A stretch of DNA of 64,000 nt from Hyphomonadaceae bacterium TMED5 (lineage in GTDB: Bacteria; Pseudomonadota; Alphaproteobacteria; Caulobacterales; Hyphomonadaceae): assembly GCA_002173095.1 (NCBI GenBank), contig NHBK01000025.1, positions 1,045 to 65,044 of the forward strand. Reading direction: 5' to 3'. Shown here piece by piece: positions 396 through 661 of this stretch. How positions within the stretch are numbered: position 1 is the stretch's first letter; every line of letters begins with the position of its first letter. A program made the translations under genes and the position numbers. The notes beneath the pieces were generated by a model that was given only the letters and a program-made list of their open reading frames with translations, ran no database searches and was not told the origin of the DNA.

Positions 396-471
396 TGGTG
401 CCGCCACCAAGATTCGAACTCGGGACCTGATGATTACAAATCAACTGCTCTACCAACTGAGCTATAGCGGC
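396..471 (-). tRNA. tRNA-Thr (anticodon UGU), complete, CCA encoded
   Basis: On the minus strand the 76 bases from 471 down to 396 fold as a complete cloverleaf. The acceptor stem pairs with one G-U, the D arm is AGTTGGTA between GCTC and GAGC, the anticodon loop is TTTGTAA (anticodon TGT), the T loop is TTCGAAT, and the gene ends in CCA. The anticodon stem has one T-T mismatch. It reads ACA codons (and ACG by wobble). It lies on the same strand as, and 148 bases downstream of, the broken tRNA-Thr at 619-661. Confidence 0.95.
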
Positions 472-530
472 ATTTTACCAAAGCGGCACCTTTAGCGAAC
501 AAGGGGCCTTAAATCAAGAAATTATGTTTT

Positions 531-539
531 TGTGGATAA
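531..539. promoter_or_regulatory. DnaA-box-like 9-mer TGTGGATAA
   Basis: The sequence TGTGGATAA is the exact complement of the consensus DnaA box TTATCCACA. It sits just before the CTTACACA repeats, between the intact tRNA-Thr and the tRNA-Thr fragment. A single box is weak evidence of function. It may belong to the end of the integrated element. Confidence 0.45.
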
Positions 540-541
540 AA

Positions 542-569
542 CTTACACAAAAGCTTACACACTTACACA
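542..569. repeat. Three direct copies of CTTACACA
   Basis: CTTACACA occurs at 542-549, 554-561 and 562-569, the last two abutting. A related ACTTACACA context surrounds each copy and a partial copy (CTTACAATA) follows at about 588. Short iterated boxes beside a recombination core are typical of tyrosine-recombinase arm sites or excisionase/initiator sites, so these may be arm sites of an element attachment region. That role is inference. The rest of the 472-618 spacer is AT-rich and holds no gene that I can see. Confidence 0.5.
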
Positions 570-618
570 GTTTCTTTGTTTTTTATCCTTACAATACAGC
601 CGTTTAGCGCAGAGAGCT

Positions 619-661
619 TATGATTACAAATCATGCGCTCTACCAACTGAGCTAAGCCGGC
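619..661 (-). pseudogene. 5' half of a tRNA-Thr (UGU) gene, interrupted after the anticodon arm
   Basis: Reading the minus strand from 661, the sequence GCCGGCTTAGCTCAGTTGG opens a normal tRNA: acceptor 5' strand, D arm, and anticodon arm CATGA-TTTGTAA-TCAT with anticodon TGT. After about position 619 it diverges into unrelated sequence with no variable loop, T arm, acceptor 3' strand or CCA. The gene is therefore a 5' fragment. It is collinear without gaps with the intact tRNA-Thr at 396-471 (offset exactly 190) and shares the 14-mer ATGATTACAAATCA (620-633 and 430-443). The break at the anticodon arm suggests integration of an element there. Confidence 0.85.

Follow-up and report, generated by a model that had tools for sequence, protein, structure and literature searches.

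The window, i.e. the whole stretch of DNA analysed here, comprises 64,000 bp of a 3.55-Mb Ponticaulis genome (G000; contig C5, positions 1045-65044), and its left end contains one complete and one incomplete tRNA-Thr(UGU) gene on the same strand. The features of the locus are as follows.

1..246, plus strand: small element gene (83 aa in full, with its start just left of the window) without Pfam match; 96-100% identical in genomes G005, G001 and G006, each time just beyond the replacement tRNA.
396..471, minus strand: complete, element-borne tRNA-Thr(UGU) with encoded CCA (the replacement tRNA), the only complete tRNA-Thr(UGU) found in the genome.
472..619, minus strand: element P' arm, from the core to the replacement tRNA; near-identical in G005, G006 and unit a of G001, homologous but diverged in unit b of G001.
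490..518, minus strand: candidate promoter of the replacement tRNA (CTTGAT at 513-518, 17 bp, CTAAAG at 490-495), a tentative assignment.
543..569, no strand assigned: three TTACACA repeats (at 543, 555 and 563), likely arm-type integrase sites, with an inverted copy (TGTGTAA) at 304; the same motif lies upstream of the integrase gene (int) in many members of the integrase family.
620..661, minus strand: host side of attL, with the host tRNA-Thr(UGU) gene from the 5' strand of its acceptor (GCCGGCT) through the D arm and as far as the core in the anticodon arm; this 5' half pairs with AGCCGGC of the 3' half at C25:135151(-) of the same genome.
622..634, minus strand: recombination core ATGATTTGTAATC, shared by attL and attR (C25:135151) over 13 bp, nearly palindromic and centred on the anticodon loop.
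854..1309, plus strand: host flank, OmpA-family gene, kept beside the tRNA locus in the genus.
1485..3203, plus strand: host flank, metG (methionyl-tRNA synthetase), a conserved neighbour, 85-87% identical in G002, G003 and G005.

Read directly on the minus strand from 661 to 620, the sequence GCCGGCTTAGCTCAGTTGGTAGAGCGCATGATTTGTAATCAT represents a tRNA-Thr(UGU) 5' half up to the anticodon arm, after which non-tRNA sequence follows. Across the window, ARAGORN predicts a single complete tRNA, the tRNA-Thr(UGU) at 396-471, and the Rfam model RF00005 scores 68 bits for this gene versus 30.9 bits for the half. A first-pass annotation had described a tRNA half with a complete tRNA-Thr(UGU) downstream, in agreement with all three analyses; it had placed the half at 619-661, and the 5' half is real, but half plus core occupy 620-661. 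Half and complete gene both contain ATGATTACAAATCA at an offset of 190. In a search of the whole genome, the succession of D arm and UGU anticodon loop was found at only two places, of which one (396-471) is a complete gene; as the only gene with that anticodon, it would be essential.

The complete gene shares 41 identical nt with the native gene, among them the entire anticodon arm, but its acceptor reads GCCGCTA/TGGCGGC versus GCCGGCT/AGCCGGC in the host gene, and the T stem differs as well. Since both acceptor strands differ, the gene is not a rebuilt host gene, and since the native anticodon arm is kept, it retains a perfect integration target. The spacer from the half to the complete gene is approx. 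147-148 bp; the same 147-bp spacer follows the half in four Ponticaulis genomes, and in three of these the same complete tRNA follows directly. The repetition of spacer and complete tRNA in Ponticaulis genomes, together with the presence of the other half elsewhere in the same genome, indicates that the half/full pair is more than a chance arrangement.

The missing half was located by searching for the core followed by a tRNA 3' half (T arm, acceptor, CCA), which yielded C25:135151(-) in the window genome, C1:2223325(-) in G001 and C15:29735(+) in G006. Each of the three 3' halves is preceded by the same non-tRNA sequence, ..TTTTTAGGTTGTTATGATTTGTAATC (P arm), and continues as ...GCAGCCGGCACCA, which contains the acceptor strand that pairs with GCCGGCT in the half at the window end. 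Both element ends are thus seen in G000, G001 and G006, with a common core of 13-14 bp. To the right of the core the sequence is AT (element) in attL versus TT (host) in attR, which places the exchange in or before the core stretch 622..634. The exact 13-bp core also occurs in an intergenic region of the window genome (C16:644765-644777; L009:1501-1513) without tRNA sequence, possibly as a secondary site or by chance; this third match was rejected as the far end of the element, as no tRNA 3' half is located there.

A gene for a tyrosine recombinase (397 aa, PF00589), 98-100% identical among the window genome, G001 and G006, starts approx. 120-130 bp inside the 3'-half end. The first-pass annotation had anticipated a 3' half with core and integrase to the left of the window; 3' half and core were found as expected (C25:135151 and G001 C1:2223325), and the integrase exists, but at the far end of the element and not at this one. 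In the window genome, the two ends are on separate contigs (C5 and C25). In G001 they are joined on one contig, approx. 36.6 kb apart, which runs from the host 5' half to the host 3' half with the full tRNA inside; the element extends to the left, as anticipated, and the small gene ending at 246 lies inside the G001 element.

The element of G001 encodes ParDE, AbiEi/AbiEii, a TrwB-type coupling protein (PF10412), a TrwC relaxase (PF08751), an ArdC-type protein, a Gabija pair (GajA and GajB; L071:9981-14095) and the small 83-aa protein. Integrase, relaxase and coupling protein, the combination by which integrative mobilizable elements are recognized, hence all lie between its attL and attR. Among the element proteins searched, i.e. 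part of the ORFs, no complete mating-pair apparatus of a type IV secretion system was seen, and Pfam searches of these ORFs returned no phage structural families; a search of 50,697 phage records with the integrase (E 1e-30) gave no match. The element is mobilizable and of the conjugation type, rather than a temperate phage. At the same tRNA on C25, a second, unrelated element of 5.2 kb lies in tandem (C25:129962-135151; L085:9563-14752), with genes for two proteins, a P4-type integrase of 407 aa and another of 412 aa that has no Pfam match; it rebuilds the 3' half in the classic manner. The C25 flank beyond this second element does not align with the flank of G004, and the right end in the window genome is therefore tied to the site only through its 3' half, P arm and integrase.

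Empty sites, where the same OmpA-like gene adjoins an unbroken tRNA-Thr(UGU), are present in G004 and G002, which provides the comparison with strains lacking the element that had been proposed from the sequence. When the flanks of G006 are joined at the core, they align with G004 without gap over 1,101 bp (91.5% identity). ARAGORN recognizes an intact tRNA-Thr(UGU) when the halves of G000, of G001 or of G006 are joined. The split tRNA-Thr is found also in three relatives, with two halves in G001. Many of the integrase family's records come from metagenome assembly, and a bin may mix genomes: G005 contains two different tRNA-Thr loci on C1 (L075) and C21 (L077), one split and one intact, each with its own OmpA-like neighbour, and is probably a mixture of two strains with two ompA-like loci. 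For this reason, G005 was set aside as a sign of a second tRNA copy beside the element.

With a probability of about 0.93, these observations are explained by the left edge of the window being attL of a Ponticaulis integrative mobilizable element, whose integrase split the sole tRNA-Thr(UGU) gene and which supplies a replacement. The first-pass annotation had proposed such a break and replacement, and 3' half, integrase, empty sites and the tRNA that is not rebuilt all bear it out. The comparison shows that the tyrosine integrase joined a short core in attP to its counterpart in the anticodon arm of tRNA-Thr(UGU), leaving the 5' half at the window end and the 3' half approx. 36.6 kb away (distance in G001), with the tRNA rebuilt at neither end. 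The complete tRNA of the element, 190 bp downstream of the host half, is now the sole complete copy. Integration would be lethal without the element tRNA, whose gene would make it survivable; the cell would become dependent on the element, in that excision would rebuild the host gene and loss of the element tRNA alone would kill.

A variant compatible with this explanation concerns expression: the replacement may be promoterless and read through from the host tRNA promoter to the right of 661, and so be made only when integrated. It lies on the same strand 148 bp downstream, and a scan for a terminator-like site between half and replacement found none. Against this stands the promoter-like pair CTTGAT-17-CTAAAG just upstream of the replacement, whose position and spacing are kept in the diverged unit b of G001 (CTTGAT-17-CTAGTT); furthermore, in tRNA-Leu relatives of the element the replacement lies approx. 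100 bp after int and approx. 1.4 kb from the half. A sigma-70 consensus scan of the 147-bp spacer returned no promoter. The layout conserved between two diverged units suggests that the replacement tRNA has a promoter of its own, and we regard read-through as rather unlikely.

Restoration of the target is usual for most tRNA-targeting elements, and the tandem element at C25:129962-135151 restores in the very same genome; accordingly, the gene at 396-471 might be a host gene rebuilt by attP sequence, and the spare half a remnant of a second element. However, the acceptor strands of 396-471 pair with one another and are both unlike those of the host, the true 3' half is located at the other end, and in G001 a single contig carries the full tRNA between the two host halves; restoration was rejected for the mismatch of both acceptor strands and appears highly improbable. 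A decayed tandem duplication without any mobile element, in which the half would be a degenerate copy of the neighbouring tRNA, could account for 41 shared nt at a distance of 190 bp on the same strand, but is of negligible probability given that the acceptor strand of the half fits the distant 3' half and not the neighbour, that integrase and empty sites are present, and that the gapless empty-site alignment and the far 3' half rule it out.

In G001, a second half, with the acceptor strand of the replacement, comes after the native one, and is itself followed by a diverged P' arm and a complete tRNA. In the simplest reading, the replacement was hit by a related element, with a later merger of the two element bodies; the replacement itself would have been the target by virtue of its native anticodon arm, giving two successive halves.

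The first-pass annotation had treated the arrangement as an isolated case. Relatives of the integrase were gathered from genomes of the order and of GTDB (Alphaproteobacteria, Acidobacteria, Planctomycetes and Gammaproteobacteria), giving 108 loci among at least 541 relatives, and splitting proved to be common behaviour: 67 of the 108 loci have only a 5' tRNA-Leu half (UAA or CAA), which in most cases lies 90-240 bp before int; in 51 of the 67 splitters, int is followed within 600 bp by a complete tRNA. Another 19 loci are restorers, in which the tRNA before int (Phe, Met, Arg, Lys, Asn, Gln) is complete and rebuilt, and in none of the 19 was a tRNA found after int (Fisher p = 7e-10 for splitters with downstream tRNA versus restorers, a value overstated because the loci are related). 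One locus (L090) was reassigned by hand from restored to split, since its upstream tRNA-Gly is only a neighbour. The far end was located for two further elements, of 41 kb in G080 and 21.5 kb in G127; in both, the host halves pair, and when joined are recognized by ARAGORN as tRNA-Leu(CAA) and tRNA-Leu(UAA), respectively. Both elements encode coupling proteins (VirD4-type in G127), and that of G127 also a MobA/VirD2-type relaxase. At the attL of five loci (L096, L146, L147, L159, L164), the 5' half is followed by an apparently decayed, non-pairing 3' half, in some together with an intron-bearing replacement; these are possible intermediates between restoration and replacement.

In a quick tree of the integrases, with many weak forks, splitters are widespread and restorers are nested, which implies at least three changes; the tRNA-Thr elements of Ponticaulis are placed among the tRNA-Leu splitters. 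Of 104 family members, 65 have TTACACA in the 160 bp upstream of int (3 expected). The half beside int is the 5' half in the tRNA-Leu relatives versus the 3' half in Ponticaulis, which means that the Ponticaulis element is oppositely oriented relative to the tRNA. Plausibly, it is the near-palindromic anticodon arm that would let this integrase family use the tRNA-Thr core in reverse.

Element-borne replacements for tRNA-Leu(UAA) contain an interruption of approx. 207-271 nt after U34, exactly in the integration core (L089, L090, L093, L096, L099, L109, L110, L114, L115 and many of L118-L187). The group I intron model RF00028 was matched over its whole length in 14 of 14 sources tested (E 5e-5 to 3e-13), and 27 of 27 replacement introns have the canonical U|...G| borders after U34. 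ARAGORN labels of Phe(aaa) and Ser(gga) with intron were rejected as misread tRNA-Leu(UAA) exons at the intron border. The intron is present in 37 of 39 UAA replacements versus one of 24 CAA replacements; in intronless CAA replacements, the stem bases beside the core are often altered. Among 398 genomes of the order, the intron motif and the integrase were each found in 36, with an overlap of 18 genomes (3.3 by chance). A match to an intronless tRNA-Leu(UAA) was found in six of the 36 intron genomes versus 237 of the 362 others, so that the intron-bearing gene is usually the sole copy.

The group I intron could break the integration core in the DNA and be removed from the RNA by splicing, and may thus shield the spare tRNA from its own integrase. 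Such shielding fits the exception in Ponticaulis, where the core is kept unshielded and was apparently struck a second time. To the general proposition we give an even chance: that a widespread family of non-phage integrases makes its living by breaking an essential tRNA for which it brings a spare, and that the spare is shielded usually by the intron (UAA) and otherwise often by changed anticodon-stem bases (CAA), with the unshielded tRNA-Thr of Ponticaulis struck twice. If true, bacterial tRNA genes would retain group I introns at the anticodon for the reason that these hide the integration site in the DNA, yet leave the RNA. Another 18 intron genomes, e.g. G049, G052, G082 and G372, have no detectable integrase of the Ponticaulis family and may hold domesticated remnants or other elements. 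In G283 and G340 (L234:1170-1680 and L235:1170-1680), a tRNA-Leu(UAA) 5' half is followed 190 bp downstream by an intron-bearing complete gene; at these two loci neither TTACACA repeats nor an integrase of the Ponticaulis family were found nearby, and a different family of integrases apparently follows this plan of split and intron-bearing replacement.

The principle that an element breaks a tRNA gene and supplies the whole cognate tRNA is known as tRNA-dependent lysogeny from mycobacteriophages (Fionnbharth, Gaia and others; Guerrero-Bustamante and Hatfull 2024, PMC10865867), and its authors raised the question of its spread beyond actinobacteriophages. Shared with the phages are the tyrosine integrase, the short core in the anticodon region, the host tRNA that is not rebuilt but replaced by a cognate tRNA of the element, and the coexistence of restoring and non-restoring relatives of one integrase. 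The Ponticaulis element differs in that it is mobilizable, with relaxase and coupling protein, and is no phage; in that the tRNA adjoins the att core or int; in that the replacement keeps the target core; in the orientation of the core to int, which is reversed relative to its relatives; and in that replacements of sister elements carry a group I intron. vTRX32-1-like prophages of Rhizobium (PMC8631192) and Lo5R7ANS-like prophages of S. meliloti (PMC11476347) likewise split tRNA-Leu and carry a whole tRNA-Leu, with protection by sequence change, as in many tRNA-Leu(CAA) elements here; unlike the elements described here, they are phages, and no intron was reported there. With classic tRNA-targeting islands and ICEs (Islander, PMC4383910), the element shares a site-specific tyrosine integrase, a tRNA target and a displaced tRNA fragment at the far end, but those islands restore the target from island sequence and the Ponticaulis element does not. 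The introns of the sister-element replacements resemble the group I intron of cyanobacterial tRNA-Leu(UAA) (PMC4476775) in their position in the anticodon loop after U34, and Randau and Soll, in the form in which PMC4390854 cites them, proposed that disrupted tRNA genes protect against integration; unlike in both cases, the intron here is carried by integrating elements, in the gene that replaces their own target. In the open-access literature, no paper was found that links intron-bearing replacement tRNAs to integrases, which does not prove that none exists.

The findings extend tRNA-dependent integration from phages to conjugation-type elements in Alphaproteobacteria, Acidobacteria and other phyla, with tRNA splitting and replacement as the usual mode of one integrase family and no oddity. 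The sole gene of an essential tRNA can then belong to a mobile element, which would be hard to lose by partial deletion, and the intron-protection proposal becomes directly testable in bacteria, as intron, integrase and target site are found on one element. Relative to the known principle, the system is set apart by non-phage mobilizable elements, an integrase family absent from the phage records searched, inverted use of the core, an unshielded spare that was apparently targeted again, and intron-bearing spares in the sister elements.
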